Shown: positions 17,568 to 33,507 of the stretch, piece after piece | Numbering within the stretch: the stretch's first letter is position 1 | Layout: every line of letters starts with the position of its first letter | From: a virus | Virus record (IMG/VR): IMGVR_UViG_3300042889_001346 | Location: 1 to 44,541 of that record | DNA length: 44,541 nt | Strand: one strand, 5' to 3' | Translations under genes and position numbers: made by a program | Notes under the pieces: model-generated | What the model saw: the letters and a program-made list of their open reading frames with translations, nothing else | Told to the model about the DNA's origin: nothing | The model's database searches: none

Positions 17568-18023
17568 ATGACACTATTAATTATTTCACTATTTCTAGCA
17601 GTTGTAATTTTTCTACTAACAGTAAAGCTAAAAGACTATGTAGAAGAAGTAGCGCAATTGAGAAAACAAATTGAAGAAACAGCTGCAGCTCATATAATTG
17701 AGAAAGCAAAAGTAAAAAAAGATTCAACATTTAGATCTTCAGCAGTTAACTGGGGTAAAACAATTGAACACTTTGTTCCGTTTATGACAAAGTTCCCTAT
17801 ACCGGCAGAAGATGTAGTATTCCTAGGAATGCCAATCGACTATGTAGGGTTTACTAACACAGAGAGTAAAACCAAATGTGAGGTACATTTCATTGAAGTA
17901 AAATCAGGAAATGCATTTTTAATGGGAAAACAAAAGAATATTAAAAAAGCAATTCAAGAAGGAAGAGTTCACTGGCATGAAATTGCAGTAGATGGAAACC
18001 GAGTAGAGATCACGGAAGAATAG
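17568..18023 (+). CDS. Membrane-anchored Holliday-junction-resolvase-like endonuclease
   Basis: 151 residues. An N-terminal membrane segment (about 1-18) is followed by a short helical linker and a nuclease-like core: IEHFVPFMTKFP, FLGMPIDYVGF and HFIEVKSG (Asp, Glu and Lys of the PD-(D/E)xK fold), then KAIQEGRVHWHEI. This order matches the endonuclease family related to archaeal Holliday junction resolvases (Endonuc_Holl type). It could resolve recombination intermediates before packaging, but the membrane anchor is unexplained. It lies 11 nt after nrdA. Confidence 0.75.
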   Translation: MTLLIISLFLAVVIFLLTVKLKDYVEEVAQLRKQIEETAAAHIIEKAKVKKDSTFRSSAVNWGKTIEHFVPFMTKFPIPAEDVVFLGMPIDYVGFTNTESKTKCEVHFIEVKSGNAFLMGKQKNIKKAIQEGRVHWHEIAVDGNRVEITEE

Positions 18024-18032
18024 CTATTTATA
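18024..18032 (+). promoter_or_regulatory. Intergenic CTATTTATA motif (copy 4)
   Basis: Exact motif beginning one base after the nuclease stop codon and ending 4 nt before the start of the lectin gene, at the switch from DNA metabolism to secreted proteins. Confidence 0.3.
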
Positions 18033-18036
18033 TGAA

Positions 18037-19035
18037 ATGAATATATTAGCCAAAATAGTAAAAATGTTATACCCTCTACTAATACTAGGGGGTATTTTAT
18101 CTACGTACGGTCAAACCTTTACGCACTCTGGTTATATCTATGGATCAAACGCTACAGGTATACAAGGAGTACAGGTGCAGTTATATAGTAGAACAACACC
18201 TACTTTAACAGGATTTACAAACCAGCAAAATTATAACGGACATTCCTATTATAGATCAACAAGTTCAATGACATGGACAGCTGCAAGACAGGCTTGTGCT
18301 AATATGGGAGGATATTTAGTAACTGTAACTACAGCAGCTGAAAATAACTTTATATTTAACTTATGGTCTGATGGATGGATAGGATTAACAGATGAAGTAG
18401 TAGAAGGCCAATGGAGATGGGTAACAGGAGAGCCGTACACTTGGGGAAACTGGAACTCAGGAGAACCTAATAATTCAAATAATGAAGATTATACTCAATT
18501 TGTAGGAAACGGTAAATGGAATGATTTACCAAATACATCTTTACCGTATGTATTAGAATTTGACTATATAGTGACTTTTACACCCTGGACTTTGGTAACA
18601 ACAGCAACAACAGATGTAACAGGGAGATATGTATTTTCAACACCAACAAATCCTTCTGTAGAATATTACATAACTTTTACTCCTCCAACCCTACCTACAT
18701 TGCAAATAAGTGATGCACAGATTTCAAACACTGTAACTCTAGGATCACTGGCTTTAAAGAGTAGAGACTATTTTAGATTTGATGTTAATAATGATGGTAG
18801 AGTAACAATATCAGATACTTATTCAATATTTGCTAGAAGAAACGGAATATTTACATCCTTTCCAGCATCCCCTCCAGACAGTAGAATATTTACAACAACT
18901 CAATGGAGTACAATTAATGCAAGTACAACAAACCTGAAAGCAACATTTCCAGGGGTACAGACAATTACAATTAATACACCTGTATCGGGTGGAGTTTCTT
19001 CTTACTATATTACTAGACTAGGGTATAGCAACTAA
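18037..19035 (+). CDS. Secreted C-type lectin protein with dockerin-like C-terminus
   Basis: 332 residues. The signal peptide (about 1-29) ends at a TYGQ-type site. A carboxypeptidase-regulatory-like beta sandwich begins (SGYIYG-SNATGIQGVQVQLYS). It is interrupted by a C-type lectin domain (about 68-178) with the diagnostic WIGLTD, the GEPNNSNNEDY Ca/sugar-type loop and GKWNDL. The beta sandwich then resumes (TTDVTGRYVFSTP). A dockerin-type EF-hand follows, with FDVNNDGRVTISD (Asp, Asn, Asp, Gly, Asp in Ca-binding positions) and YSIFARRNG. The last ~80 residues resemble the end of the next protein. A glycan-binding surface protein is likely; receptor binding or adhesion is inferred. Confidence 0.75.
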   Translation: MNILAKIVKMLYPLLILGGILSTYGQTFTHSGYIYGSNATGIQGVQVQLYSRTTPTLTGFTNQQNYNGHSYYRSTSSMTWTAARQACANMGGYLVTVTTAAENNFIFNLWSDGWIGLTDEVVEGQWRWVTGEPYTWGNWNSGEPNNSNNEDYTQFVGNGKWNDLPNTSLPYVLEFDYIVTFTPWTLVTTATTDVTGRYVFSTPTNPSVEYYITFTPPTLPTLQISDAQISNTVTLGSLALKSRDYFRFDVNNDGRVTISDTYSIFARRNGIFTSFPASPPDSRIFTTTQWSTINASTTNLKATFPGVQTITINTPVSGGVSSYYITRLGYSN

Positions 19036-19043
19036 AATCAGTA

Positions 19044-19052
19044 CTATTTATA
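19044..19052 (+). promoter_or_regulatory. Intergenic CTATTTATA motif (copy 5)
   Basis: Exact motif 9 nt after the lectin gene stop, in a 78-nt gap that also holds a short GTGC-ATAA-GCAC hairpin (19065-19076). The next gene starts 61 nt downstream. Confidence 0.35.
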
Positions 19053-19113
19053 AAAGGTATGAGAGTGCATAAGCACCCGGTTGTGAAATAAAAATAACTT
19101 AAAAACAAAAGAA

Positions 19114-20205
19114 ATGAAAAAATTACTTTTAGTATTGAGTTTAGTTTTAGTATCATTAACAGGATTTGCACAAACTATCGCACCTGATGCTACTAAGCCT
19201 TACTTAATATTTGACGCTAGTTACAACCTGGCACCACTTGGAGCAACACCTACAAACGTTGCAATTTATTATGATAATGCTGGTTCTACAGCTATCAAAG
19301 CAGTACAGTACAGATTTTGGTACGACAAAAACGTATTTGCTTCTCCTACAGTGACTTACACTGGAACTGAAGCAAACAATTATTTCCAAACATTAGTAAA
19401 TGCTACTGAAGGAAATGTAACAGTTACATGGGTTTACACAGGAGCAGATGCTGCTTTCAATATTGCTGACGGAGCAATGTTCAACGTAGCTTTACCATTT
19501 AAAGCAGGTTATACAAACGGTGCAGTAACAGCAATGGCGTTTACAGGAGCGACAGCTTACCCGGCTTACGGTACTCTAGCAAATGGAACTGATACTACAC
19601 TAGGATTACATAATTACGGAGGAGCGTTCACAGAACCAGTATTTAACTATGCTGCTACATTCTTAAATGATCCAACCAACCCAGCTTCAGACGTTCCAGT
19701 AATATTACAAAAATCTTCAAACGGAACAACTTGGGTAGATGTAATGACAGTTAATACAGCAACTACAACAGGAGTAGCATCATTCACAACTAACTTAGAT
19801 CAAAACTACTGGCAAATTAGAGTAAAAGTAGCACCAGGATTAACAGCACCAGGAGCATTAGCAGCAGCAGATGCAAATATGATTGCTCAAATCGCTACAG
19901 GAATACAAGCTCCAACTGGAACTCAATTCTATACTGCTAACCCTAACCAAGCAAATGGAATAACAATTTCAGATTCATATACAGTATTCTCTAGATTGGC
20001 TCAAGGTTTATCAGTTTACCCAAACACACCTGATTTACTATTCTTTACAGAAGCTCAATACAACACTATTGCAGCAGCTACAACAGATCAGTCAGCAACA
20101 ATTCCAGGGGTAGCAACATTCTTATCAGCTAACATTAACAATACAACAGCAGCCAATTACTATCTTCTAGTATTAGGAGACGCAAACGGAACAGGACGCA
20201 ACTAA
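19114..20205 (+). CDS. Secreted cohesin-like / dockerin-like surface protein
   Basis: 363 residues with a clear signal peptide (KKLLLVLSLVLVSLTGFAQ). About residues 25-135 form a cohesin-like beta domain (VAIYYDNAGSTAIKAVQYRF, then a late DGAMFNVALPF strand). A second beta domain covers about 165-245. Then comes a dockerin-like pair: ALAAADANMIAQIATGI and ITISDSYTVFSRLAQG. The end (LVLGDANGTGRN) looks like the opening of a further EF-hand cut short. The C-terminal ~100 residues parallel those of the lectin protein. Only one base separates it from the next gene. Low Cys and rich Thr/Ala suit a secreted protein. Confidence 0.65.
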   Translation: MKKLLLVLSLVLVSLTGFAQTIAPDATKPYLIFDASYNLAPLGATPTNVAIYYDNAGSTAIKAVQYRFWYDKNVFASPTVTYTGTEANNYFQTLVNATEGNVTVTWVYTGADAAFNIADGAMFNVALPFKAGYTNGAVTAMAFTGATAYPAYGTLANGTDTTLGLHNYGGAFTEPVFNYAATFLNDPTNPASDVPVILQKSSNGTTWVDVMTVNTATTTGVASFTTNLDQNYWQIRVKVAPGLTAPGALAAADANMIAQIATGIQAPTGTQFYTANPNQANGITISDSYTVFSRLAQGLSVYPNTPDLLFFTEAQYNTIAAATTDQSATIPGVATFLSANINNTTAANYYLLVLGDANGTGRN

Positions 20206-20206
20206 T

Positions 20207-20938
20207 ATGCTACGCTATATAATCATAGCACTGTTATCAATAAATTCACTCTATTCCCAGGTACAATTTCAAGTGCCTGGGATTACAGTGTCTCCGTCTA
20301 ATACCATAGATCTACCTGTAGCTATTCTAACAAATGGAAATGCAGTAGGGAGTTTAGAATTTGCTTTAAATTACGATCAAAGCATTTTACAATTCTCAGA
20401 AATAATTTTATCTGAAAAAGCACAAACCTGGTTAACCTATACAATGGATACCGGAAGTGGAAAAGTAAGATGGGGAGGATATGATAGAACACATGGACAG
20501 CATACTGTAACAGCTCCAACAGAATTATTCATATTAAAATTTACAGTACTTAATCCTAACTGGACTACAACTCCTATAACCGTAGGAAGAAAGACAGCTG
20601 GAAATGTACAAGGGTGGGATATCGCTGTAACTAATACAGATGGTTATATCAACTATAATAGGTATGCAGCTCCTTTAGATGAAGATGGAATTCACGGAAA
20701 AGTATATCCAGTACCTACAGATGGAATTATAACAATGGAGATGTCTTTACCAGTGAGTGGAGATTATGAAATTGCAGTTTACGACATGGGAGGAAATCAA
20801 CTAAGTATAAAGAAAGAACGTTTTGCAAAAGGACCGAATACTACTTATGGAGATCTAACTGCTTACCCAAGTGGTAACTATTTATTAAATATAAGAAGTA
20901 AGAACTTCGCAAAAACATTTAAAGTAATAAAAAAATAA
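20207..20938 (+). CDS. Secreted cohesin-like protein with T9SS sorting domain
   Basis: 243 residues. The signal peptide (about 1-18) ends SLYSQ. About residues 19-155 form a cohesin-like domain: VPGITVSPSNTIDLPVAI, VGSLEFALNYDQSILQFSEI, VRWGGYDRT, ELFILKFTVLN and a final VTNTDGYINY. About residues 165-243 match the type A T9SS C-terminal sorting domain: KVYPVPTDGIITMEM, YEIAVYDMGGNQL, YPSGNYLLNI and a final KTFKVIKK. Such tails direct cargo through the outer membrane in gliding Bacteroidota, then are removed. A phage gene with this tail implies export by host T9SS. Its cohesin could bind the dockerin-like ends of the two upstream products. Confidence 0.75.
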   Translation: MLRYIIIALLSINSLYSQVQFQVPGITVSPSNTIDLPVAILTNGNAVGSLEFALNYDQSILQFSEIILSEKAQTWLTYTMDTGSGKVRWGGYDRTHGQHTVTAPTELFILKFTVLNPNWTTTPITVGRKTAGNVQGWDIAVTNTDGYINYNRYAAPLDEDGIHGKVYPVPTDGIITMEMSLPVSGDYEIAVYDMGGNQLSIKKERFAKGPNTTYGDLTAYPSGNYLLNIRSKNFAKTFKVIKK

Positions 20939-20941
20939 GCT

Positions 20942-21265
20942 ATGTCAGAAGAAACAAACAACGAAGGTGGATTATCAGGATTGAAAAAAACCTTAATCGG
21001 AACTCTAACTACAGTAATCGGTGGAGCAGGTATTTGGGTATCAACAACTTTATTCGGAGGTCACTCAGAAGATAAAGAAGAAGTGAAAACAGAACAAGTA
21101 GCACCAGCACCAGCAGCAGCACCTGTCATTAATGTTAATTTGGAGAACAACAACACCAACCAACAAAAACAACAATCAAACAACTCTAATTCAGCTAAAG
21201 CCGCTCCTGCTCCAGTTCAACAAGCAGCACCAGCACCAGCTCCTGCTCAAAAAGAATCTTGGTAA
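20942..21265 (+). CDS. Small membrane protein with Ala/Pro/Asn-rich tail
   Basis: 107 residues. One membrane segment (about 16-40, KKTLIGTLTTVIGGAGIWVSTT) is followed by an acidic stretch and then a low-complexity tail of Ala-Pro repeats and an Asn/Gln run. Size and topology would also suit a holin or spanin-type protein, but no family is recognised. It sits 3 nt after the T9SS protein and 3 nt before the next small membrane protein. Confidence 0.6.
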   Translation: MSEETNNEGGLSGLKKTLIGTLTTVIGGAGIWVSTTLFGGHSEDKEEVKTEQVAPAPAAAPVINVNLENNNTNQQKQQSNNSNSAKAAPAPVQQAAPAPAPAQKESW

Positions 21266-21268
21266 TAG

Positions 21269-21538
21269 ATGGAAGAGACAAAAGGGTTCATGGATACATT
21301 CCTGTCTAAACTAAAGGAACAGTCTTTTACTATAATAGTTATGGTAGGAATAATCTGGTACCAGGGAGTGATGATGGAAGAAAGAGTTGCCTATTGGCAA
21401 AAACTCTATGAGGCTCAAAAGGCTTATATTGAGGAAACTACTAAAGAAGATAAAGCAATTTTATTAGAAAGAGTAAAAGATTTAACAGATCAAAGAGAAA
21501 AGTATATAGAAGATTTATTAATACAAAAAAATAAATAA
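21269..21538 (+). CDS. Small membrane protein with coiled-coil tail
   Basis: 89 residues. A membrane segment (about 18-34, FTIIVMVGIIWYQGVMM) is followed by a charged helical tail of ~50 residues with heptad-like spacing. This is the layout of i-spanins and of some holin partners, but it lacks a distinguishing motif. It may act with the preceding gene. Confidence 0.55.
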   Translation: MEETKGFMDTFLSKLKEQSFTIIVMVGIIWYQGVMMEERVAYWQKLYEAQKAYIEETTKEDKAILLERVKDLTDQREKYIEDLLIQKNK

Positions 21539-21540
21539 AA

Positions 21541-22524
21541 ATGGCAGACGAAACAATCGGAGTTGTAGTAGGTAACGAACAAGCAGGTGCATCAGCAGAA
21601 GCACACGCGGGAACAGAAGTAACAGATACATCAGTATCAGCAAATGCCGGAGTATCAGCCGAGGCTCATGCCAATGTAGAAAATACAACCGAAGTTGTAG
21701 AAGGAGTAGATATTAATTCAGAAGCACACGCTACAGCAGAAGCATCAGTAGAAGCACAAGCACAAGCAGGATGGGATGGACATGACGCTTCAGCATCAGC
21801 TGGAGTAACAGCTGAAGTAAAAGTAGAGGTAGAAGCTTCAACAGAAGTAGAAACTGATTACGGAACAGCAGGAGTACATGCCGGAGCATATGCAGAAGCA
21901 CATGCAGGAGTAGAAGCAAATGCTTCAATAGGAGAACATGGAGCTGAAGCTAACGCAGGAGCATCAGTGGGAACATCAGTAGGAGTAGAAGCAGGAGTAA
22001 CAGCACAATCAGGTGATGTATCAGCAGAAGCAAATGCAGGAGTATCTGTAGGGGTACAAGCAGGAGCAGAAGTTGGAGGTGGAGCTACTTACGATGATGG
22101 AGCTATCACATTAGGAGTTGAAGGTGAATTAGCACTTTTAGTTGGTGTAGATGTAGACGCATCAGTAACTATAGATGTATCGGATGAAGTAGAAGCAGCT
22201 AAAGCAGCGGCAGAAGAAGCGGCTAAAGCAGCAGCAGATTTATTAGCATCTCAAGAAGCAGCTGAAGCACAACGTGTAGCAGAAGAAACAGCAGCAGAAA
22301 CAAAACGTGTAGCAGATGAAGCAGCTAGAGTATTAGCAGAACAAGCTGCAGCAACTGAGAGAAGATTAGCTGAAGAAGCAGCAGCAGCTCAAAGAGAATT
22401 AGAAAGACAAGCAAGAGAAGCTCAAGACGTACTTGATAGAAAAGCAAGAGAAGCTCAAGATGCACTTAATAATGCAGGTAAAGCAATAGAAAAAAGTAAA
22501 GCTAATCCAAGAAATTGGTTCTAA
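21541..22524 (+). CDS. Ala-rich repeat protein with coiled-coil C-terminus
   Basis: 327 residues, no signal peptide. Residues ~1-220 are built of irregular short repeats around AEAHAxVE / AGVSAEA units, rich in Ala, Glu, Gly, Val and Thr. Residues ~220-320 are a nearly uninterrupted Ala/Glu/Arg coiled coil (AAEEAAKAAADLL, then several A(R/K)EAQD units). It ends NPRNWF. The composition suggests an extended fibrous protein. Its stop overlaps the start of the CsgG-like gene (TAATG), so the two are translationally coupled and may work together at the envelope. Confidence 0.6.
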   Translation: MADETIGVVVGNEQAGASAEAHAGTEVTDTSVSANAGVSAEAHANVENTTEVVEGVDINSEAHATAEASVEAQAQAGWDGHDASASAGVTAEVKVEVEASTEVETDYGTAGVHAGAYAEAHAGVEANASIGEHGAEANAGASVGTSVGVEAGVTAQSGDVSAEANAGVSVGVQAGAEVGGGATYDDGAITLGVEGELALLVGVDVDASVTIDVSDEVEAAKAAAEEAAKAAADLLASQEAAEAQRVAEETAAETKRVADEAARVLAEQAAATERRLAEEAAAAQRELERQAREAQDVLDRKAREAQDALNNAGKAIEKSKANPRNWF

Positions 22525-23237
22525 TGGTAAGAAAATTAATATTTATACTATTTTTATTAGCAAGCATAATAGGCTCTGCTCAAAAAGTAGGGTCTGTTAA
22601 AACTGAAGTCTACCAAGCCGATTTTGAAAAGAAGCAATCATTAGAGGTTGTATCTGATTATAGCGGAGACATAGTCATCCCTATTCAGATCCTTAAGATT
22701 GGTATCAATGAGGAATTATATGAAATGTACCCTGAACTAAAAGATAAAAGAGTTGGTTTAGGAGTATCAAATATAGTATTAGAGTATTTAGAGTCCACAA
22801 ATAGATTTAAGTTTACAGAAGACAGAGAAGAAATAAAACAAAAAATGATTGCTCAACACATAGCTTCAGCTAAGGGTATATCAGAAAATAAAATAGAAGT
22901 TAAAGGAAATGTTATATTAGCAAAGTATTTTGTTTATATAGAAGTCTATGATTTCAGCATAGGTGAGGATGAAGAAGTTTCAACCTCTGGAGCTGAGATA
23001 AGACAAAAAACAATATTAGGGTTACAAGTAAGATTTGTGGATGCACAGAGCGGTGAAATAATTACTGGATCAGGATCCGGTGAAGCAGTTACAGTGAAGA
23101 AGGCAAGCTTATTAGATGGACTCGACGATATTAAATTTAATCAATCAACAATCGGAGTATCTACCAAAAAGTCATTAGAAACTGCCTCTTCAAGAGTAGT
23201 ATCAAAAATGATTAAAAAGGGGATATTTCCGAACTAA
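22524..23237 (+). CDS. CsgG-family outer-membrane secretion protein
   Basis: 237 residues from ATG 22524, chosen because it overlaps the previous stop; an upstream TTG (22515) is possible. A signal peptide (about 2-20, RKLIFILFLLASIIGSAQ) precedes a mature part with the CsgG pattern: VGLGVSNIVLEYLESTNRF-KFTEDREEIKQKMIAQ (regulatory helix region) and QKTILGLQVRFVDAQSGEII (beta strands that form the ring). CsgG forms a nonameric pore that exports curli subunits. Phages, mainly T4-like ones from water, are known to carry relatives. No curlin repeat protein (CsgA/B) is obvious nearby. It has no lipobox Cys. Confidence 0.7.
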   Translation: MVRKLIFILFLLASIIGSAQKVGSVKTEVYQADFEKKQSLEVVSDYSGDIVIPIQILKIGINEELYEMYPELKDKRVGLGVSNIVLEYLESTNRFKFTEDREEIKQKMIAQHIASAKGISENKIEVKGNVILAKYFVYIEVYDFSIGEDEEVSTSGAEIRQKTILGLQVRFVDAQSGEIITGSGSGEAVTVKKASLLDGLDDIKFNQSTIGVSTKKSLETASSRVVSKMIKKGIFPN

Positions 23238-24667
23238 TGAAAAAATGGATTTCTTTATTTATATTCTTTGCTTTCCTACAGGCTTCAGCCCAGTACAGCT
23301 ACACCTATACAGATCCGTGTACACTACAATCCAAGAGCGTATTCGTACCTGCTGGGGGAAATGTAATGGTAAACTACTTTGATAACCATAATACATTTTC
23401 TGCAAATGACTTCTCCTCAGGAGTCTTCGATAACTGGATAACTCTAGTATCTCAACAAAATTCAAACTCACCTTGTGAATCAGTAACTACAGCTATTGTA
23501 AATAGTATAACCAATGTAACAGTTGCTAACACATTAACTGTTGTTACAAATGTAATATCAGTAACAAACGTAGCTCAATCCATAGCGACCATAGGAGGAT
23601 CTATGGGAAGCTCTATGACAGCTACAGCCGGAGGCGTAACAAACTCTTCACAAAGTGAAGGAGGTAGTACTAACCAAAACTCAAAAGATGAAAAAAAATC
23701 CGATTCAAATACCAATTCAGGAACAAATACAGGAACTACTGGAACAAGCCCAACAGGTAACCAAAGTCAAGGAGGCCAAACCACTTCTAACCCTTCTGGA
23801 GGAACACCTACAGGATCTTCAACAGGAACACCTCAACAAGGAGGAGAAACTACAAGTCCAAATCAACCAGCTTCAACAGGAGGTTCATCGTCTGAGTCGT
23901 CTGTAGAAGGTTCAAGCGGTGGAGGAAGTAATTTAGCTAACTCTTTATCCAACTCTGTAGATGGAGGATCATCTGACGGAGGAAGTTCAGGCGGTGGAGG
24001 AACATCAGGCGGTGGTAAAAAATCTAATAATGCAGCTAAAAGTGTAGGAAGTTTAATTGCCTCAGGAGATATAGTAGCTATTGCCAATACTGATCAAACT
24101 CAGAACTTTAGATTTGTAGGAAGTATAACTCATGCCAATACTAGAGGAACTAGAATCAAAGGAGTATTATTCAATTATACCTCAGGAGTTAATAACTTAA
24201 ATGTTACTTTTTATAAATCCTGGATTAATAAATCTAAAAAATTAAACACAGTAGGAGCTCAATCCATTATGATGGATTTTGATAAAAATTTCTTTAGTAC
24301 AACGACAGTATTAGAATCATATAAAGTAAGTAACAAACTAACAGGAATGTTTGGTGTCAATTTTACAGCAGGTAAAATGGGAGAAAGAGCTTTATTGAAT
24401 CTATCAGCTGTAGGTGGAGCACATAGTAGTTTTAAACTAAGCGATAGAGTTAGTACTAGCGTACTTGTATTAGGAGTATACTCTCCATTCACTCAGTTCT
24501 ACGAAGGTAAATGGTGGGATGCTGGCATAATAGTAGTACCATTTAATTCATGGGATTTAAAAATAACTAAGACATTTAAGTTTAATGTAAGTTTTACAGG
24601 AGTATACGAAGCAGGTAAAGAATTTTTAAATTACCAAATATTAACAGGTGGTAAATTGACATTTTAA
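23237..24667 (+). CDS. Secreted Ser/Gly-rich protein with probable outer-membrane beta domain
   Basis: 476 residues. Signal peptide (about 1-19, ends ASAQ). An N-terminal ~120-residue domain contains two Cys (about 28 and 76). A long low-complexity linker (about 125-265) of Ser, Gly, Thr, Gln and Asn follows. The C-terminal ~210 residues show alternating amphipathic strands (RFVGSITHANTRG, NVTFYKSWI, SVLVLGVYSP, DLKITKTFKFNVSFTGVYE) and end on Phe, as outer-membrane barrels often do. It overlaps the CsgG-like gene by one base. The pair may form an export or anchoring unit. Confidence 0.55.
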   Translation: MKKWISLFIFFAFLQASAQYSYTYTDPCTLQSKSVFVPAGGNVMVNYFDNHNTFSANDFSSGVFDNWITLVSQQNSNSPCESVTTAIVNSITNVTVANTLTVVTNVISVTNVAQSIATIGGSMGSSMTATAGGVTNSSQSEGGSTNQNSKDEKKSDSNTNSGTNTGTTGTSPTGNQSQGGQTTSNPSGGTPTGSSTGTPQQGGETTSPNQPASTGGSSSESSVEGSSGGGSNLANSLSNSVDGGSSDGGSSGGGGTSGGGKKSNNAAKSVGSLIASGDIVAIANTDQTQNFRFVGSITHANTRGTRIKGVLFNYTSGVNNLNVTFYKSWINKSKKLNTVGAQSIMMDFDKNFFSTTTVLESYKVSNKLTGMFGVNFTAGKMGERALLNLSAVGGAHSSFKLSDRVSTSVLVLGVYSPFTQFYEGKWWDAGIIVVPFNSWDLKITKTFKFNVSFTGVYEAGKEFLNYQILTGGKLTF

Positions 24668-24752: not shown

Positions 24753-25208
24753 ATGAAAAAATTATTTTTATTATTAGCATTAGTATTTTTAGTATCAGCT
24801 GATACAACTACTAAGGAATGTTATAAAGTAACAAAAGTGTCTTCACAAGTTGAAGCACCTGAAATGAAAAAAGAAAGAGTTGTATTCGGAATTAAACAAA
24901 TGACAGAAGAAATTCTATCTGAAAAGCATGACATATGTGAAGATGGAACTCCAGTAGAAGTAGAAGTACTATCAGTTGAAGCACCTTCCACAAATACATC
25001 TTTAGGTCCATTCTCTAAAACTAAAAAAATTACTATTGTAAAATTAAGACTTATAATAGGAAAAGAGGAATACTGGGGTCAAGGAGAAGCAAACGTAACA
25101 GTTCAATCAACATTCTTAGATTTGAACGACGATAACTTACCATTTAACAAGACTGCATTCTCAGGAGCAGTTAAAAAAGCTTTAGTAGAAGCTGTTGGAG
25201 AAATGTAA
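24753..25208 (+). CDS. Small secreted protein of the CsgG cluster, unknown
   Basis: 151 residues with a signal peptide (about 1-16, KKLFLLLALVFLVSA). The mature part has two Cys (about 23 and 62), a mid-region GPFSKTKKITIVKLRLIIG and a conserved-looking KKALVEAVGEM end. It has no known domain that I recognise. As the last gene of the secreted operon it may be a periplasmic partner of the CsgG-like pore. Confidence 0.6.
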   Translation: MKKLFLLLALVFLVSADTTTKECYKVTKVSSQVEAPEMKKERVVFGIKQMTEEILSEKHDICEDGTPVEVEVLSVEAPSTNTSLGPFSKTKKITIVKLRLIIGKEEYWGQGEANVTVQSTFLDLNDDNLPFNKTAFSGAVKKALVEAVGEM

Positions 25209-29729: not shown

Positions 29730-29813
29730 GGAAGGCGGCCGAATGGACGAGGAGCTTGTCTTGAAAACAAGTAGCGGGTAACACCGTTGTGGGTTCGATT
29801 CCCATGTCTTCCT
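29730..29813 (+). tRNA. tRNA-Ser(TGA)
   Basis: Acceptor GGAAGGC/GTCTTCC, anticodon loop CTTGAAA, long variable arm and T-loop TTCGATT. CCA is not encoded, as for most of the array. Confidence 0.92.
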
Positions 29814-29819
29814 CAATAT

Positions 29820-29891
29820 TGGCTTATAGTGTAACGGTTAGCACAAAACACTTTGACTGTTTTAGTCTAGGTTCGAATCCTAGTAAGCCAA
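29820..29891 (+). tRNA. tRNA-Gln(TTG)
   Basis: Acceptor TGGCTTA/TAAGCCA, anticodon stem AAACA/TGTTT with loop CTTTGAC, T-loop TTCGAAT. All arms pair well. Confidence 0.92.
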
Positions 29892-29900
29892 CAATAATTT

Positions 29901-29976
29901 CGGGTAGTAGAGGAGTCTGGTTTATCTCGCTGGCCTTGGACGCTAGAGCACGCAGGTTCGAATCCTGCTTACCCGA
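29901..29976 (+). tRNA. tRNA-Pro(TGG)
   Basis: Acceptor CGGGTAG/TTACCCG, anticodon loop CTTGGAC, T-arm GCAGG/CCTGC with TTCGAAT. Confidence 0.92.
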
Positions 29977-29982
29977 CGAATT

Positions 29983-30054
29983 GCCCCTATAACTTAACGG
30001 CTAAAGTACTATACTTTTAATATAGGAATCCAAGTTCGATTCTTGGTGGGGGTA
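29983..30054 (+). tRNA. tRNA-Lys(TTT)
   Basis: Acceptor GCCCCTA/TGGGGGT with two G-T pairs, anticodon stem CTATA/TATAG with loop CTTTTAA, T-loop TTCGATT. Confidence 0.9.
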
Positions 30055-30059
30055 CAAAA

Positions 30060-30155
30060 GCTACATACACAACCTTACAATCTCTCAGTTAAAAGCTGTT
30101 GTAAGATCAAGTAATAAGCCAATATGCTTGTTAGTTGTGATCAGGTGTAGCACCA
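30060..30155 (+). ncRNA. Spacer RNA A: three-way junction closed by an acceptor-like stem with ACCA
   Basis: GCTACA (30060-30065) pairs with TGTAGC (30146-30151), directly followed by ACCA. Inside: CACAAC/GTTGTG (30068-30073/30134-30139), CTTACAA/TTGTAAG (30074-30080/30099-30105) and AAGC/GCTT (30116-30119/30126-30129). It has an acceptor-like end but no T-arm. The next tRNA starts at the base after ACCA. Confidence 0.4.
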
Positions 30156-30226
30156 GCCTCGTTGGCGTAATGGGAGCGTATTTCTTTTACATGGAAATGG
30201 CAGTAGTTCGATTCTACTACGAGGTA
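30156..30226 (+). tRNA. tRNA-Val(TAC)
   Basis: Acceptor GCCTCGT/ACGAGGT, anticodon loop TTTACAT with a stem containing a T-G pair, T-arm GTAGT/CTACT with TTCGATT. Confidence 0.85.
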
Positions 30227-30246
30227 CAAAATTCTGGGTAGCAAGT

Positions 30247-30306
30247 AAAATACCGGCAAGTATTTTCAAGTCTATATGGAGTCTATTATGAGTTATTAAT
30301 TTGCCG
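30247..30306 (+). ncRNA. Spacer RNA B: H-type pseudoknot candidate
   Basis: Hairpin AAAATAC-CGGCAA-GTATTTT (30247-30266), whose whole six-base loop is complementary to TTGCCG at 30301-30306. This is a classic pseudoknot geometry in a 99-nt gap between tRNAs. Confidence 0.4.
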
Positions 30307-30325
30307 ATGAAAGCTTGTTATAGTT

Positions 30326-30397
30326 TCGTTCTTGGTAGATTGGTGACTACGCTGCCCGCGGAGGGTGGAGAAGCAGGTTCGATTCCTGTAGAATGAT
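30326..30397 (+). tRNA. tRNA with unusual anticodon loop (apparent CGG, no U33)
   Basis: Acceptor TCGTTCT/AGAATGA, D-arm GTAG/CTAC, T-arm GCAGG/CCTGT with TTCGATT all fold. The anticodon stem CTGCC/GGTGG encloses CGCGGAG, giving CGG (Pro) at 34-36 but G instead of the near-universal U at 33. Identity is therefore uncertain. Confidence 0.6.
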
Positions 30398-30403
30398 CAA
30401 ATT

Positions 30404-30484
30404 GGGATGCTTCAGTCACTGGTGTGATAAGCGGTCTGTAAAATCGTTCTGTAAGAAGGTGTGGTTCGATTCCACAGTGTCCCA
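30404..30484 (+). tRNA. tRNA-Tyr(GTA)
   Basis: Acceptor GGGATGC/GTGTCCC, loop CTGTAAA, class II variable arm as expected for bacterial tRNA-Tyr, T-loop TTCGATT. Confidence 0.9.
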
Positions 30485-30492
30485 CAAATATG

Positions 30493-30538
30493 GAATAACA
30501 TCGCTCCCGTAATGCCATGGCTTGTATACGAGTGACGG
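30493..30538 (+). other. Hairpin-forming spacer between tRNA-Tyr and tRNA-Phe
   Basis: CTCCCGT pairs with ACGGGAG across about 25 nt that include the self-complementary GCCATGGC and GTATAC. Possibly a processing signal or a remnant of a tRNA. Confidence 0.35.
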
Positions 30539-30546
30539 GAGACAAT

Positions 30547-30619
30547 GGACCTTTGGTATAGCTGGTGCGTACGCTAGTCTGAAGAACTAGAGGAGTAGGT
30601 TCGATTCCTACAGGGTCCA
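30547..30619 (+). tRNA. tRNA-Phe(GAA)
   Basis: Acceptor GGACCTT/AGGGTCC, anticodon stem CTAGT/ACTAG with loop CTGAAGA, T-loop TTCGATT. Confidence 0.92.
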
Positions 30620-30696
30620 CGAAGTAGAGAGGTATGGGTTCGAGTCCCATCCGGGCCGTTAGCGGCGCGGTAGTATAACGGTAGTAACGCTTTCTT
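30620..30696 (+). other. tRNA halves in reversed order (permuted tRNA or remnant)
   Basis: A 3' half comes first: T-arm ATGGG-TTCGAGT-CCCAT (30634-30650) and acceptor strand CCGGGCC plus G (30651-30658). Then comes a 5' half: GGCGCGG (30664-30670), TA and a D-arm containing TATAACGGTAGTA, running into tRNA-Asn. The two acceptor strands pair except for one G-G. Either a circularly permuted tRNA gene or the scar of a recombination between tRNAs. Confidence 0.35.
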
Positions 30697-30768
30697 GGGT
30701 TTGTCGTATAACGGCTATTACGGATGACTGTTAATCATCTTATGAAGGTTCGATTCCTTCCAGGCCCG
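30697..30768 (+). tRNA. tRNA-Asn(GTT)
   Basis: Acceptor GGGTTTG/CAGGCCC (two G-T pairs), anticodon stem GATGA/TCATC with loop CTGTTAA, T-arm GAAGG/CCTTC. Confidence 0.9.
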
Positions 30769-30774
30769 CAAAAT

Positions 30775-30848
30775 AGGTAATTAGCTCAATTGGTTAGAGC
30801 ACTCGCCTGATACGTGAGAGGTTATAGGTTCGATTCCTATATTACCTA
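30775..30848 (+). tRNA. tRNA-Ile(GAT)
   Basis: Acceptor AGGTAAT/ATTACCT, D-arm GCTC/GAGC, anticodon loop CTGATAC, T-loop TTCGATT. Confidence 0.93.
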
Positions 30849-30853
30849 CAAAG

Positions 30854-30936
30854 GGAAAGTAAATCAACTAGGAGTTGAGACCGCTTGCTAAGCGTATCGT
30901 GCCTTCGGGCATGGGGTTCGATACCTCTGCTTTCCT
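30854..30936 (+). tRNA. tRNA-Ser(GCT)
   Basis: Acceptor GGAAAGT/GCTTTCC, loop TTGCTAA and a class II variable arm (GTGCC-TTC-GGGCAT). The anticodon stem is weak: only its three inner pairs form. Confidence 0.85.
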
Positions 30937-31040
30937 CAAAAAAACCTCCTCACCGTCCTCACAACGCATCTAAGGAATGCAGGAGAAGGAAGTACGAACG
31001 GGGCCCCGTGGTAAGACACATTAAAATCAGATAGTACAGC

Positions 31041-31063
31041 GATAGGGTAAGAGGTTCCCTATC
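31041..31063 (+). other. Strong hairpin upstream of the Met-like tRNA
   Basis: GATAGGG/CCCTATC, 7 pairs, 9-nt loop. It lies in the 130-nt gap (30937-31067), which otherwise shows GCAT/ATGC and TCCT/AGGA pairings near 30967-31000 and no gene. Confidence 0.4.
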
Positions 31064-31067
31064 AACT

Positions 31068-31136
31068 ACCGACTTGATCTAGGATCGAGAATATCTCATA
31101 AGTATTCTCAGACAAGAGCGTAACTTGTAGTCGGTA
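31068..31136 (+). tRNA. Deviant tRNA-Met-like RNA (CAT), no TTCRA T-loop
   Basis: Perfect acceptor ACCGACT/AGTCGGT plus discriminator A. D-arm reduced to GATC-TAG-GATC. Anticodon arm GAGAATAT/GTATTCTC with the standard Met loop CTCATAA. T-arm ACAAG/CTTGT with a 7-nt loop AGCGTAA instead of TTCRANY; variable region only 2 nt. The geometry is tRNA-like but resembles reduced mitochondrial tRNAs. Confidence 0.55.
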
Positions 31137-31138
31137 CT

Positions 31139-31248
31139 AAATTATATGGGTAGGTAGGAAGTTAAGAAACGTTTCTCAAAAAACGACTTAATGAGGTAAA
31201 GCGTTAGAGTAGTAAAATTGAGTAAGCGTTATTAAAGTAGTATAATTT
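31139..31248 (+). ncRNA. Spacer RNA D closed by an 8-bp helix
   Basis: AAATTATA (31139-31146) pairs with TATAATTT (31241-31248). The interior contains the palindrome GAAACGTTTC and further short pairings. AT-only closing stems are weak evidence alone. Confidence 0.3.
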
Positions 31249-31253
31249 TATAT

Positions 31254-31326
31254 GGTGTTCGAAGCTTTTTAGTGAAGCGCAAGACTGTGAATCTTGAGAA
31301 GACGGGGCGGTACCGTCCTTACACCC
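31254..31326 (+). tRNA. Deviant tRNA-His-like RNA (GTG), altered T-loop and acceptor
   Basis: D-arm GCTT/AAGC, anticodon stem CAAGA/TCTTG with loop CTGTGAA (anticodon 31287-31289), T-stem GACGG/CCGTC. The T-loop is GGCGGTA rather than TTCRANY, and the acceptor pairs only as GGTGT/ACACC plus AAG/CTT with a 3-nt bulge. It is the only His candidate in the array. Confidence 0.6.
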
Positions 31327-31331
31327 AACAT

Positions 31332-31411
31332 GCCTCTGTGGTGAAATAGGTAAACACACCAGGCTTAAAACTTGGCGCTCAGGCTTGCTGGTTCGACTCC
31401 AGTCAGGGGTA
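31332..31411 (+). tRNA. tRNA-Leu(TAA)
   Basis: Acceptor GCCTCTG/CAGGGGT, anticodon stem CCAGG/CTTGG with loop CTTAAAA, 12-nt variable arm as normal for Leu, T-loop TTCGACT. Confidence 0.9.
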
Positions 31412-31419
31412 CAAAAAAA

Positions 31420-31496
31420 TCGCTGATGTCCTCTTTAATTGTTCGACATTGAAGATGTGTAATGATATAAACATCGTAGGTTAAGCGATATCCTAC
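31420..31496 (+). ncRNA. Spacer RNA E: pseudoknot candidate
   Basis: GATGT/ACATC (31425-31429/31471-31475) stacks on GTAGG/CCTAC (31476-31480/31492-31496). The loop of the latter holds AGCGA (31484-31488), complementary to TCGCT (31420-31424) at the 5' end. The three helices are contiguous. Confidence 0.4.
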
Positions 31497-31500
31497 AACT

Positions 31501-31572
31501 GGTCTTATAGTTTAATTGGAAAAACTTATCGCTACGAACGATAGAACGTAGGTTCGACTCCTACTAAGACCT
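31501..31572 (+). tRNA. tRNA-Arg(ACG)
   Basis: Acceptor GGTCTTA/TAAGACC, anticodon stem TATCG/CGATA with loop CTACGAA, T-loop TTCGACT. The A34 would need host TadA editing to read CGN codons. Confidence 0.92.
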
Positions 31573-31573
31573 C

Positions 31574-31728
31574 AAAATATAATTACAAAGCGTAGGTAAG
31601 AAGACGTGGAGAGACGTTGCGCAAGGGTACACACTAAGGATAAGTATTTATACTCAACTCTCTAAGGGTGTGTGAAGCACTAAGAAATTAGATCCCAGAT
31701 TCCTGATAAAACTTACTAATTATATTTT
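31574..31728 (+). ncRNA. Spacer RNA F closed by a 12-bp AT helix
   Basis: AAAATATAATTA (31574-31585) pairs with TAATTATATTTT (31717-31728). Inside: ACGT-GGAGAG-ACGT, ACACAC/GTGTGT and AGTAT/ATACT. A 160-nt gap between two tRNA-Arg genes with no open frame. Confidence 0.35.
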
Positions 31729-31732
31729 AACC

Positions 31733-31804
31733 GCCCTATTAGTTAAACGGATATAACGAATCTCTTCTAAAGATTAATTCTAGGTTCGATTCCTGGATGG
31801 GGTA
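31733..31804 (+). tRNA. tRNA-Arg(TCT)
   Basis: Acceptor GCCCTAT/ATGGGGT, anticodon stem AATCT/AGATT with loop CTTCTAA, T-loop TTCGATT. Confidence 0.9.
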
Positions 31805-31810
31805 CAACAA

Positions 31811-31881
31811 GCGGGTCACAGACAAGGTGTCGGTACGGTCTCCAAAACTGCTACGGGTAGGTTCGATTCCTACGGTCTGCG
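31811..31881 (+). tRNA. tRNA-Trp(CCA)
   Basis: Acceptor GCGGGTC/GGTCTGC with G-T pairs, loop CTCCAAA, T-arm GTAGG/CCTAC with TTCGATT. Confidence 0.85.
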
Positions 31882-31918
31882 CAAAATTATTAATTATGAA
31901 AAAGAAATTCGATGCTCA

Positions 31919-31936
31919 TTAGGTTTATTAACCTAA
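31919..31936 (+). promoter_or_regulatory. Hairpin with TATT loop before a small gene
   Basis: TTAGGTT-TATT-AACCTAA, 12 nt ahead of ATG 31949. An identical-loop hairpin precedes the gene at 33880. Just upstream an eight-codon frame (from 31898) ends at the hairpin; it could be a leader peptide or chance. Confidence 0.4.
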
Positions 31937-31948
31937 AATTTGAGCAAG

Positions 31949-32131
31949 ATGAGAATCAAAAACTATACTCAGAAAGAGTATAAAAAAGAAAAAAGAAAAC
32001 AATCCAAAGATGGTGGAATGTGGTTTGAAGACTATTGGAGTAAATGTAAATCCGGAATATGGGCCTTCAAGTACAGAGAGTACCGTACTTGGAAGTACAA
32101 CAGAAAAACACAGTATAAACCTTTAAATTAA
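31949..32131 (+). CDS. Small basic protein (60 aa) inside the tRNA array
   Basis: ATG 31949 preferred over an in-frame TTG at 31940. Strongly basic and aromatic (KEYKKEKRKQSKDGGMWF, then FKYREYRTWKYNRKT), suggesting RNA or DNA binding. It lies 5 nt before the HNH endonuclease gene. Confidence 0.55.
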   Translation: MRIKNYTQKEYKKEKRKQSKDGGMWFEDYWSKCKSGIWAFKYREYRTWKYNRKTQYKPLN

Positions 32132-32136
32132 AAATC

Positions 32137-32643
32137 ATGAGTAAGTATCAAAAAGCACTAGTAGTGGATGCAAGCTTTACAGCAAGATCAGTTATAAGTA
32201 CCGAACGAGCGTTCGTGATTTTTTATAAGGGTAATGCTGAAGTAGTAGCAGAGCATCCAGAAACATTTAGTTTAATTAATCCTGAACTAACCATTTACAA
32301 ACCTTCTATTATTAGAGTAGCTAAGTATGTAAAACAAAACATTCAAAAAGTACCTCTAACAAGAGAGAATATTTACCGAAGAGATAATTATGAATGTGTT
32401 TATTGTGGTAGTTCAAATCAAAGAATATTAACACTTGACCATGTTATCCCTCAATCAAAAGGAGGAAAAGATGCTTGGGATAATTTAGTAACAGCTTGTA
32501 GACCATGTAATCATGAGAAAGCAGATTTAACATTAGAGGAATATGGTAAGGAAATTCCAGAACCAAAAAGACCTCATTATTTAATGTTAATGAGAAGTAT
32601 GACATACATACCTAAAGAATGGGAAACATTTTTATTCTTTTAA
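32137..32643 (+). CDS. HNH endonuclease
   Basis: 168 residues. A ~75-residue N-terminal part precedes the HNH domain: YECVYCG (Cys87, Cys90), LTLDHVIPQSKGG (Asp-His catalytic pair), DAWDNLVTACRPCNHEKAD (Asn, and the second CxxC). Free-standing HNH nucleases are common mobile elements in phages. Insertion between tRNA clusters suggests a homing-type element, though a processing role is possible. Confidence 0.85.
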   Translation: MSKYQKALVVDASFTARSVISTERAFVIFYKGNAEVVAEHPETFSLINPELTIYKPSIIRVAKYVKQNIQKVPLTRENIYRRDNYECVYCGSSNQRILTLDHVIPQSKGGKDAWDNLVTACRPCNHEKADLTLEEYGKEIPEPKRPHYLMLMRSMTYIPKEWETFLFF

Positions 32644-32646
32644 ATA

Positions 32647-32802
32647 ATGGAAGAGTGGAAGCCAGGATATTATGATAAATGGGAGAATTTTATTCCTTAT
32701 GATAAAAAATGGTATTGTAATGAAAATAAAAGAATCCATCAATCAGAAAAGGAAAAAAATAATTGTAAGTATTGCAATAAAGGTTTGGAAAACCAGAAAT
32801 AG
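32647..32802 (+). CDS. Small putative zinc-ribbon protein (51 aa)
   Basis: ATG 32647 to TAG 32800-32802. WYCNENKRIHQ followed by NNCKYCNK gives a C-x6-H and CxxC arrangement that could hold one zinc. It follows the HNH gene by 3 nt, and its end carries the promoter of the second tRNA cluster. Confidence 0.55.
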   Translation: MEEWKPGYYDKWENFIPYDKKWYCNENKRIHQSEKEKNNCKYCNKGLENQK

Positions 32803-32815
32803 TTTCATATATTAA
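32785..32815 (+). promoter_or_regulatory. Promoter TTG-N20-TATATTAA of the second tRNA cluster
   Basis: TTG 32785-32787, TATATTAA 32808-32815, followed by GGTATAA as in other copies. A GGTTT-GGA-AAACC hairpin overlaps the TTG. Confidence 0.7.
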
Positions 32816-32836
32816 GGTATAAGAAAGTAAAATATA

Positions 32837-32908
32837 TCACCTACTACAAAACGGCGCGCGAAACAATAGAATCCCGACTTGTACTGTCTGGAAGGTCAGG
32901 CTAGGTGA
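32837..32908 (+). ncRNA. Spacer RNA G: 72-nt RNA with a 7-bp closing stem
   Basis: TCACCTA (32837-32843) pairs with TAGGTGA (32902-32908). The inner GACTT/AAGGTC arm is weaker. It is tRNA-sized but has no recognisable anticodon or T-arm. First RNA after the promoter. Confidence 0.3.
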
Positions 32909-32912
32909 AAAT

Positions 32913-32983
32913 GGGCAGTTGGCCGATTGGTTAGGCACAGGATTGCAAACTCTGTTAGGTTGGTTCGATTCCAACACTGCCCT
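32913..32983 (+). tRNA. tRNA-Cys(GCA)
   Basis: Acceptor GGGCAGT/ACTGCCC, loop TTGCAAA; the innermost anticodon pair is an A-C mismatch. T-arm TTGG/CCAA with TTCGATT. Confidence 0.88.
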
Positions 32984-32997
32984 CATTTAAGGTTCGA

Positions 32998-33041
32998 CCC
33001 TCTACCAAATGTGTTACACCCACAAATGGACAACGAGAGGG
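32998..33041 (+). other. Spacer hairpin H
   Basis: CCCTCT/AGAGGG enclosing CCA/TGG and TGTG/ACA pairings, preceded by GGTTCGACC, which resembles a T-loop remnant. A further hairpin CCGCA-CA-TGCGG follows at 33062-33073. The 95-nt gap has no gene. Confidence 0.3.
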
Positions 33042-33078
33042 AGCTACCGATTGATAAGTGGCCGCACATGCGGCAAAT

Positions 33079-33152
33079 GCCCGAGTGGTGGAATTGGCAG
33101 ACACGGCGGCCTTAGAAGTCGTAAACTGAGAGTTCGAGTCTCTCCTTGGGTA
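33079..33152 (+). tRNA. tRNA-Leu(TAG) with a short variable loop
   Basis: Acceptor GCCCGAG/CTTGGGT, Leu-type D-arm (GTGGAATTGGCAGACAC), anticodon stem GCGGC/GTCGT with loop CTTAGAA, T-loop TTCGAGT. The variable region is only five bases, whereas bacterial tRNA-Leu has a class II arm. Confidence 0.82.
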
Positions 33153-33154
33153 CA

Positions 33155-33224: not shown

Positions 33225-33228
33225 ATCT

Positions 33229-33302: not shown

Positions 33303-33307
33303 CAACT

Positions 33308-33379: not shown

Positions 33380-33387
33380 CAGGGGTG

Positions 33388-33426: not shown

Positions 33427-33430
33427 ATTT

Positions 33431-33502: not shown

Positions 33503-33507
33503 CAAAA

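Follow-up and report, generated by a model that had tools for sequence, protein, structure and literature searches.

We identified a cluster of three open reading frames, all on the (+) strand, in a 44,541-nucleotide stretch of viral DNA (IMG/VR record IMGVR_UViG_3300042889_001346); this whole stretch is referred to below as the window. The encoded proteins, designated A, B and C (Table 1), begin with Sec-type signal peptides as read by eye only, and they carry lectin, cohesin, dockerin-like and T9SS-tail modules. Cohesins and dockerins are plug-and-socket domains best known from cellulosomes. The modules had been read from the sequence in a first-pass annotation, and Pfam, TIGR and fold matches agree with that reading. 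The three-protein cluster is confirmed as a real feature, and the interpretation that accompanied it is, as a whole, partly supported. Because gene order and domains are conserved in the isolated phage immuto and in further viral loci, the arrangement is more than chance. A search of the window for the Bacteroidota promoter pattern gave a single match, at 43278, equal to the backwards control, and none close to the cluster.

Table 1. Features of the cluster and its cassette neighbours (window coordinates)
Feature	Position	Strand	Description
A	18037..19035	+	Secreted head protein, 332 aa
A, C-type lectin	18265-18540 (residues 77-168)	+	Pfam Lectin_C, 63.9 bits (cut-off 22.6)
A, dockerin-fold C-terminal domain	18691-18876 (residues 219-280)	+	Fold match, Z 7.0
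B	19114..20205	+	Putative adaptor, 363 aa; signal peptide, cohesin fold, middle domain, degenerate dockerin-like domain
B, domains	Residues: cohesin ~21-175, middle ~176-245, dockerin-like ~246-300		Limits mapped by eye from a fused homologue
C	20207..20938	+	Putative anchor, 243 aa; cohesin (20261-20587) and T9SS type A sorting domain (20702-20926)
Cassette member	20942..21265	+	Small protein; by eye, a single hydrophobic helix and a tail rich in Pro and Ala; homologue in 87/104 sequences (103 loci plus the window)
Cassette member	22524..23237	+	Secreted protein with weak likeness to CsgG; the ORF opens with TTG at 22515, homologues begin at ATG 22524
Cassette member	23237..24667	+	Secreted protein, Ser/Gly-rich middle, beta-rich end; in 50/50 and 33/33 full-flank loci
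Cassette member	24753..25208	+	Small secreted protein; in 50/50 and 33/33 full-flank loci

Modular architecture of A, B and C

The lectin of A is inserted in a prealbumin-like sandwich, and a domain of dockerin fold follows. The sugar-site motifs of C-type lectin domains are EPN or QPD, and WND; the combination EPN..WND occurs in 89 of the 106 distinct A proteins positive for the lectin and in 0 of 2120 shuffles. C-type lectins form the top Foldseek rows for A. The lectin region of the model has a pLDDT below 50, and the head of A was therefore judged by sequence.

The C-terminal domain of A (model residues 219-280) resembles dockerins 8x39 (Z 7.0, rmsd 1.8, 59 residues aligned), 4uyp_B (Z 6.9) and 4dh2_B (Z 6.7). 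This similarity is modest, as a Z of about 7 is under the tool's caution line of Z 8 and ranks below the matches for the other domain of A, the sandwich, which takes the top 16 rows of the VIA list. The Pfam model Dockerin_1 reaches 13.7 bits on A against a cut-off of 22.9, across 22 residues only; at E 0.01 it matches 8 of 62 rows of the A alignment and 5 of 59 rows of the A1 alignment, and in the fused B-C homologue L095 it also falls below the cut-off. The EF-hand loop, FDVNNDGRVTISD (residues 248-260), is strongly conserved. Across the 62 rows D249 and D260 are invariant and N251 and D253 are present in at least 90%, and among 82 distinct loops position 1 is D in 78, position 3 N in 81, position 5 D in 66 and position 12 D in all 82. 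The two Ca-binding F-hand loops of dockerins were not found; A and fused B have one conserved loop each.

B of the window gives no Pfam match, Cohesin included. However, the equivalent region of L095 (residues 26-180) has a cohesin fold (Z 14.7, rmsd 2.6, 140 aligned), and residues 26-301 align at an rmsd of about 9.5 to the scaffoldin chains 4fl4_I (Z 14.6) and 3kcp_A (Z 13.9), which we take to be the Coh-X-Doc portion of CipA. Cohesin is matched at E ≤0.01 in 50 of the 59 rows of the A1 alignment, 44 of which contain C, so that the matches include at least 6 of 15 B-only rows. The C-termini of A and B are homologous (blastp 3e-12). In fused B the EF-loop retains D at positions 1 and 12 and N at position 3 in all 54 loops, with D at position 5 in 26; in contrast, the loop of split B is degenerate, with N, N, A/S/T and D at positions 1, 3, 5 and 12 in 8 of 8 distinct loops. 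The earlier description of B as a cohesin-like domain with a diverged dockerin pair consequently stands for the cohesin, by way of the fused homologue, while the pair reduces to one degenerate loop and a first motif that lacks an acidic loop as seen by eye.

C is over all cut-offs: Cohesin at 33.4 bits (cut-off 24.1), Por_Secre_tail at 38.6 (27) and TIGR04183 at 39.3 (23), which places its C-terminal sorting domain above the T9SS thresholds as had been anticipated. Solved cohesins and T9SS tails are among the matches of a profile search, and the C part of L095 has a cohesin fold with a Z of 14.7. The tail part of L095 resembles the T9SS tails of PorU (Z 10.7), mirolase (10.5) and NucA (10.2), but unrelated Ig-like domains tie with these (complement C3, Z 10.5; macroglobulin, 10.1), and the tail assignment is therefore based on sequence and not on fold. 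The model of the fused B-C protein has a pTM of 0.58, and the placement of domains within it was left unused. The HMM searches suggested in the first-pass annotation thus yielded Lectin_C, Cohesin (in C) and Por_Secre_tail over cut-off in the window proteins, with Dockerin_1 below it and B without a match.

A conserved cassette in Flavobacterium phage and other viral loci

We rejected the idea of a set limited to these three genes. A, B and C sit inside a larger conserved cassette, overlooked in the first-pass annotation, and are accompanied by a gene with weak likeness to CsgG and by three further genes. In full-flank loci collected with the CsgG-like gene as bait, and hence always containing it by design, a cohesin is found in 50/50, the tail in 49/50, the B cohesin in 50/50 and A in 49/50. 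With a second bait the corresponding numbers are 33/33, 33/33, 33/33 and, by HMM, 23/33. Seven of the 10 loci without an A match were examined, and in all seven the position of A is taken by a protein of 374-429 aa. Three of these (L206, L200 and L212) score 21.8, 16.6 and 15.1 bits with the A C-terminal HMM, whereas the highest score among 350 shuffles is 5.2; the other four give no score. Locus L162 shows no A, and L186 has a BC-like protein without a tail. Altogether, 122 distinct cohesin-bearing proteins of this kind occur across 204 partly overlapping loci. A second lineage has B and C joined in a single protein; we count 96 distinct fused proteins, 22 B-only and 24 C-only, end-truncated ones included.

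The similarity to CsgG is weak. PF03783 is matched by 4 of 29 family members (best E 1.9e-4), the homologue in L188 reaches 25.7 bits with CsgG (cut-off 20.8), and the family has no PDB profile match, no PHROG and an hhalign probability of only 7 to the CsgG of HTVC008M. The product of 24753 is possibly a distant relative of this family, as suggested by hhalign (probability 60, E 8.5e-5), and that of 23237 might, as a guess by eye, be an outer-membrane barrel. In Pfam the 24753 product is without a match and the 23237 product without one over cut-off; PDB searches with both returned chance-level rows only. Pfam detected no CsgA/CsgB curlin repeats and no CsgF in the nine window genes 17568-24667 (at E 1) or in 24753 (at E 0.1), a search that remote relatives may escape.

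The cluster is present in the isolated Flavobacterium phage vB_FspM_immuto (MW353175, NC_055915), whose host is Flavobacterium sp. LMO8. Gene order is identical, and A, B and C are 69-74% identical to those of the window; the phage genes are annotated 'lectin C-type' and 'cohesin'. However, immuto is without window genes 21269 and 21541, and its B and CsgG-like genes are labelled 'hypothetical'. Its record has the cluster at 10.5-16 kb, next to ribonucleotide reductase, and the annotated virion genes at ~82-101 and 119-154 kb. Among 199 genomes from the genus of a Flavobacterium MAG, one has Cohesin above the cut-off; the phage thus appears to supply plug and socket itself and to borrow the host T9SS. 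The BC profile matches 187 of the same 199 genomes, among the matches listed nearly always through its tail part.

Exchange of heads and correlation between domains

By Pfam, the heads of A vary among C-type lectin, LamG, PA14 and GEVED domains. The clearest pair, loci L226 and L231, is 95% identical in BC, 100% in the CsgG-like protein and 98% in the A dockerin, but only 21% in the head of A. Among changed-head pairs of the fused lineage the dockerins are 76-98% identical in 4 of 5 and 32% identical in the other, whereas in the split lineage the dockerin diverges too (38-61% in the 14 listed of 35 pairs). Pfam searches of 62 A members and ten unusual-head A proteins found no enzyme cargo on the dockerin, only binding and Ig-type domains.

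In a mirror-tree test that corrected the distance correlations for two further genes of the cassette, the A dockerin correlates with the B cohesin (0.35 in the fused set, 0.25 in the split set) more than with the C cohesin (0.18 and 0.05). This direction agrees with pairing of A to B and of B to C. We keep it as a hint only, because the genomes are related and resampled relatives are not independent, and because other correlations rival it: in the fused set the A dockerin correlates nearly as well with the T9SS tail (0.32), and in the split set the highest correlation (0.84) is between the two cohesins.

A proposed lectin display scaffold

The cluster recalls the clostridial cellulosome, in that B has the order cohesin, middle module and dockerin, A resembles dockerin-bearing cargo and C resembles a surface anchor with a cohesin. 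In contrast to that system, the set is phage-borne, its cargo is a lectin and not an enzyme, it has one Ca loop, and its anchor carries a T9SS tail, whereas cellulosome anchors are of the SLH or sortase type. In addition, each protein has a single cohesin, and the fusion has two.

We propose that A, B and C form a lectin display scaffold outside the infected Bacteroidota cell, linked from A to B to C to the T9SS anchor, an arrangement that we consider probable though far from certain. All parts would reach the periplasm by Sec, and the host T9SS would export C and fix it on the surface through its type A tail. B would be an adaptor whose dockerin-like end docks on the cohesin of C; in the second lineage a single polypeptide combines B and C. 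Through its Ca-dependent dockerin, A would plug into the cohesin of B and hold there a carbohydrate-binding head that can be exchanged. An outer-membrane route or base for the parts without tails is probably provided by the CsgG-like protein together with the remaining cassette genes. The benefit would likely be control of the surface contacts of the infected cell, by covering receptor glycans (superinfection exclusion) or by holding neighbouring cells. An assembled surface scaffold, as put forward in the first-pass annotation, is favoured by the comparative evidence of the B-C fusion, the conserved EF-loop in A, the head changes and the constant co-occurrence. A and B have no T9SS tail, and we counted this against the scaffold model, together with the single Ca loop, the low Dockerin_1 scores, the modest dockerin fold match, the degenerate loop of split B, the dockerins that diverge along with the heads, the competing correlations, and loci L162 and L186. 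A more ambitious version, which we regard as possible but rather doubtful, is a virus-made cellulosome-like organelle, in which a cohesin-dockerin stalk bearing exchangeable lectins, served by the host T9SS and by an export base of the CsgG-like phage protein, would catch other host cells nearby or keep competing phages out. On this view a comparable device, made of curli parts with a PA14 head, would have arisen independently in pelagiphages.

Alternatively, the proteins may have recruited the same domains yet act as separate adhesins, exported or periplasmic, that do not dock, with the cohesin and dockerin folds as relics or spacers. The single Ca loop, the sub-threshold Dockerin_1 scores and the degenerate loop of split B would fit such adhesins, and cohesins occur outside cellulosomes (the title of 2xdh reads 'non-cellulosomal cohesin'). 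However, plugs and sockets co-occur in one cassette, the Ca residues of A are conserved, heads change on near-identical dockerins in 4 of 5 fused pairs, and B and C are fused, and we consider this explanation unlikely. It is quite improbable that the central component is the CsgG-like protein, acting as a pore in uptake or in the timing of lysis, and that the cohesin-dockerin-lectin proteins plug, gate or anchor it: the set adjoins the CsgG-like gene, itself the bait, in all 50 and 33 full-flank loci, and a lysis role for CsgGF has been published as an idea for pelagiphage and methylophage (PMC9004378), but the likeness to CsgG is slight and a lysis pore needs no exchangeable lectin heads. Decoration of the virion, where the complex would help to find hosts or surfaces, is very improbable even though heads switch between close relatives as in phage adhesins, and the virion display once suggested is judged unlikely because the signal peptides (by eye) and T9SS tail route the products out of the cytoplasm, the immuto cluster adjoins replication genes far from annotated virion genes, and A, B and C have no PHROG match below E 0.1.

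Phage use of the host T9SS, which the first-pass annotation took to be undescribed, is already described: Bellas et al. (2020, PMC7468147) reported 'Cryophage' genes for proteins with type A tails, whose variable cargo includes a PA14 protein. These genes resemble the present ones in joining type A tails and variable parts. However, each variable 'Cryophage' cargo has its own tail, whereas here separate heads bear dockerins and the tail is on the cohesin protein; the available portions of that report name neither cohesin nor dockerin (PMC7468147). Curli CsgG/CsgF operons occur in pelagimyophages and in methylophage Melnitz, where the available text offers a 'sibling capture' idea (PMC7029224, PMC9004378). 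They share with our cassette a CsgG-family gene and that idea, but here the CsgG likeness is weak, the window genes searched give no CsgF match, and cohesin-dockerin-T9SS proteins replace the curlin-repeat proteins. No phage cohesin-dockerin system appears among the open-access titles and abstracts listed.

If the proposed display scaffold is correct, it would be a cohesin-dockerin scaffold made by a virus, and would offer one concrete answer to what phage surface cassettes (T9SS cargo, curli genes) do, a question still open. The isolated pair of immuto and Flavobacterium sp. LMO8 makes the idea testable, and the design of one plug with many heads would lend itself naturally to use as surface-display parts in Bacteroidota.

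Domains and predicted folds of the three proteins

Three adjacent genes of this 44.5-kb IMG/VR virus record encode A (lectin and dockerin-like), B (cohesin-like and dockerin-like) and C (cohesin and T9SS tail). The first-pass annotation had assigned a C-type lectin to A and a cohesin-like domain with a type A T9SS sorting domain to C, and Pfam and NCBIfam scores bear this out (Table). Of 106 distinct lectin-positive A proteins, 89 have the sugar-site motifs EPN and WND one after the other, against 0 of 2120 shuffles. The dockerin proposed for A agrees with its predicted fold but not with its profile score: residues 219–280, most of them in a block with pLDDT >90, align to dockerins (Z 7.0, below the tool's caution line; rmsd 1.8, 59 aligned), whereas Dockerin_1 reaches 13.7 bits against a Pfam cut-off of 22.9. 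Blastp detects homology between the C-terminal domain of A and that of B (3e-12).

B itself has no Pfam match, and the cohesin-like domain claimed for it is upheld by a structure predicted for L095, a natural B-C fusion (633 aa, 59-row alignment, pLDDT 77.7, pTM 0.58), to which window B is assigned by homology and window C by homology and Pfam. In the model, residues 26–180 of the B part adopt a cohesin fold (Z 14.7, rmsd 2.6, 140 aligned), as does the C part (Z 14.7 over 372–533; 14.4 over 405–533). Residues 26–300 align, with rmsd of ~9.5, to two scaffoldin chains, Coh-X-Doc of CipA: 4fl4_I (Z 14.6) and 3kcp_A (Z 13.9). The predicted module order of B is thus that of an adaptor scaffoldin. 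Residues 551–633 match the T9SS tails of PorU (Z 10.7), mirolase (10.5) and NucA (10.2), but unrelated Ig-like domains score 10.1–10.5, so the identity of the tail is decided by the sequence match.

Features of the window and of loci collected for comparison
Locus	Coordinates	Feature
Window	17568-24667	Cluster matching immuto (79.4% identity, 79% coverage)
Window	18037-19035	A; C-type lectin well above Pfam cut-off
Window	19114-20205	B
Window	20207-20938	C; Cohesin and T9SS type A tail, each above curated Pfam cut-off; tail likewise in NCBIfam
Window	21269-21538	Short membrane-type protein inside cassette; in 14/104 sequences, absent from immuto
Window	21541-22524	Ala/Glu-rich repeat protein (327 aa) inside cassette; in 13/104 sequences, absent from immuto
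Window	29730-33816	tRNA gene array, 20 genes (4 annotated in first 27.9 kb of immuto)
L009	4549-6822	Two tandem A genes with differing heads beside single B and single C
L185	7316-14780	Cassette in contig binned as Bacteroidetes MAG
L187	7403-12633	Cassette (A broken) in contig binned as Sphingomonadaceae MAG
L186	6418-8581	B-C-like protein (597 aa) without T9SS tail; phage-like contig of Flavobacterium MAG
L189 (KC465899, Pelagibacter phage HTVC008M)	10638-11963	Final curli-operon gene; PA14 and Curlin_rpt repeats
L235 (immuto)	115920-115979	Outside cassette: Dockerin_1 match below threshold (16.6 bits against 22.9) in hypothetical gene gp079 (843-aa frame)

Two lineages of a linked cassette

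Loci baited by C or A fall into two lineages. In the split lineage, which includes the window and Flavobacterium phage vB_FspM_immuto, A, B and C are each encoded by a gene of their own; in the fused lineage B and C form one protein (BC) of ~630–656 aa, and A lies farther downstream. Distinct proteins over all loci, including end-truncated ones, comprise 96 fused, 22 B-only and 24 C-only. The tail is present in 120 of 122 distinct cohesin-bearing proteins, from 204 loci, many of which share contigs. Genes 20942, 22515, 23237 and 24753 (named by window start) are common to both lineages. The lectin/cohesin/T9SS cluster is real and larger than first read.

The product of 22515 is weakly CsgG-like by sequence: PF03783 matches 4 of 29 family members (best E 1.9e-4), and a KSB1 bin carries a homologue (tblastn 3e-35) that scores 25.7 bits for CsgG against a cut-off of 20.8. 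This family, itself drawn from A- or C-baited loci, was used as bait to lessen bait bias. Among the best 80 of 571 relatives, 50 loci had full flanks (35 fused, 15 split), with a cohesin, a B cohesin, 23237 and 24753 each in 50/50 and the T9SS tail and A each in 49/50. With a second, distant bait, 33 of the 43 loci recovered had full flanks; all 33 have a cohesin, the T9SS tail, the B cohesin and both 23237 and 24753, and A is present by HMM in 23/33. Seven of the ten loci lacking A by HMM were read; a protein occupies the A position in all seven, with a diverged A C-terminus detectable in three. Given the reach of these baits, the linkage holds for this clade and is not extended to all CsgG-like phage genes. 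The L187 and L185 contigs are probably phage contigs binned with bacteria.

Head changes and candidate pairing

Heads among 62 A members are mostly Lectin_C (55), with Laminin_G_3 (3), PA14 (2) and GEVED (1) also matched in Pfam; other A proteins bear further GEVED, Ig and PA14 heads. EF-loop positions 1, 3, 5 and 12 are D, N, D and D in 78, 81, 66 and 82 of 82 distinct A loops, and in 54, 54, 26 and 54 of 54 fused B loops; the split B loop is degenerate in 8/8. Where B is at least 80% identical between split-lineage genomes, A heads fall below 45% identity in 35 of 58 pairs, and among the 14 changed-head pairs listed the dockerin has diverged as well (38–61%). In the fused lineage heads changed in 5 of 79 pairs, with dockerin identities of 98, 83, 78, 76 and 32%. 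The clearest pair, L226 and L231, retains 95% identity in BC, 100% in the CsgG-like protein and 98% in the A dockerin, with 21% in the head, as expected of a plug-in head carried on an unchanging dockerin.

A hint of A-B and B-C pairing, though no test of binding, comes from correlating distances across 73 fused and 18 split genomes, with a correction for two further genes of the cassette. The A dockerin correlates more with the B cohesin than with the C cohesin (0.35 versus 0.18 fused; 0.25 versus 0.05 split), and the B dockerin correlates with the C cohesin at 0.65 (fused) and 0.78 (split), although in the split set this is surpassed by the correlation of the two cohesins with each other (0.84). 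A-B exceeded A-C in 299/300 (fused) and 292/300 (split) resamplings, but A-tail in only 192/300 and 245/300. The chain would run from the head of A through its dockerin to the B cohesin, and from the B dockerin to the C cohesin and the T9SS anchor. The data establish the modules, folds, linkage, fusion and changes of head; we infer these partners, any benefit, and the outer-membrane crossing of the tail-less A and B, which would pass via the CsgG-like base or be carried by C.

Cellular placement and known systems

Phage immuto (160 kb; host Flavobacterium sp. LMO8) came from a Baltic mesocosm; the paper on it is Hoetzinger et al. 2021, referred to in review PMC11500664. A, B and C are contiguous there in unchanged order, annotated 'lectin C-type', 'hypothetical' and 'cohesin'. 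The cassette lies at 10.5–16 kb, preceded in the record by ribonucleotide reductase and followed by genes for queuosine and tRNAs; genes annotated as virion genes occupy ~82–101 kb and 119–154 kb, and a glycosyltransferase cluster 49–60 kb. Because of this position, and since A, B and C begin with signal peptides (read by eye), the products fit better at the host surface than as a component of the particle.

Of 199 genomes in the genus to which a MAG titled Flavobacterium sp. belongs, one has Cohesin above the cut-off and six have it at E 0.001, one of these six being the L186 phage-like contig. With up to six candidates scored per genome, the BC profile matched 187/199, nearly always by the tail part only among the matches listed. 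Hence the phage seems to come with cohesins and dockerins of its own while borrowing the widespread T9SS. After the L186 B-C-like protein lies a small lipoprotein-like gene, possibly an alternative anchor.

A phage product using host T9SS together with cohesin-dockerin pairing had been called undescribed; PMC7468147 already reports phage T9SS cargo, including PA14 cargo, from 'Cryophage', suggesting competition or superinfection exclusion. Phage-encoded T9SS cargo and a PA14 domain are common to both systems. Phage curli genes and a 'sibling capture' idea appear in the pelagimyophage paper (PMC7029224); the methylophage paper reports that cells did not clump and favours a function in lysis (PMC9004378). 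Both state that CsgA and CsgB are missing; despite this, HTVC008M may encode a curlin-like subunit bearing a sugar-binding-type head. No phage cohesin-dockerin system appeared by title or abstract among the open-access matches listed. The cluster is a new combination of known parts and, as an isolated phage exists, its function is open to experiment.
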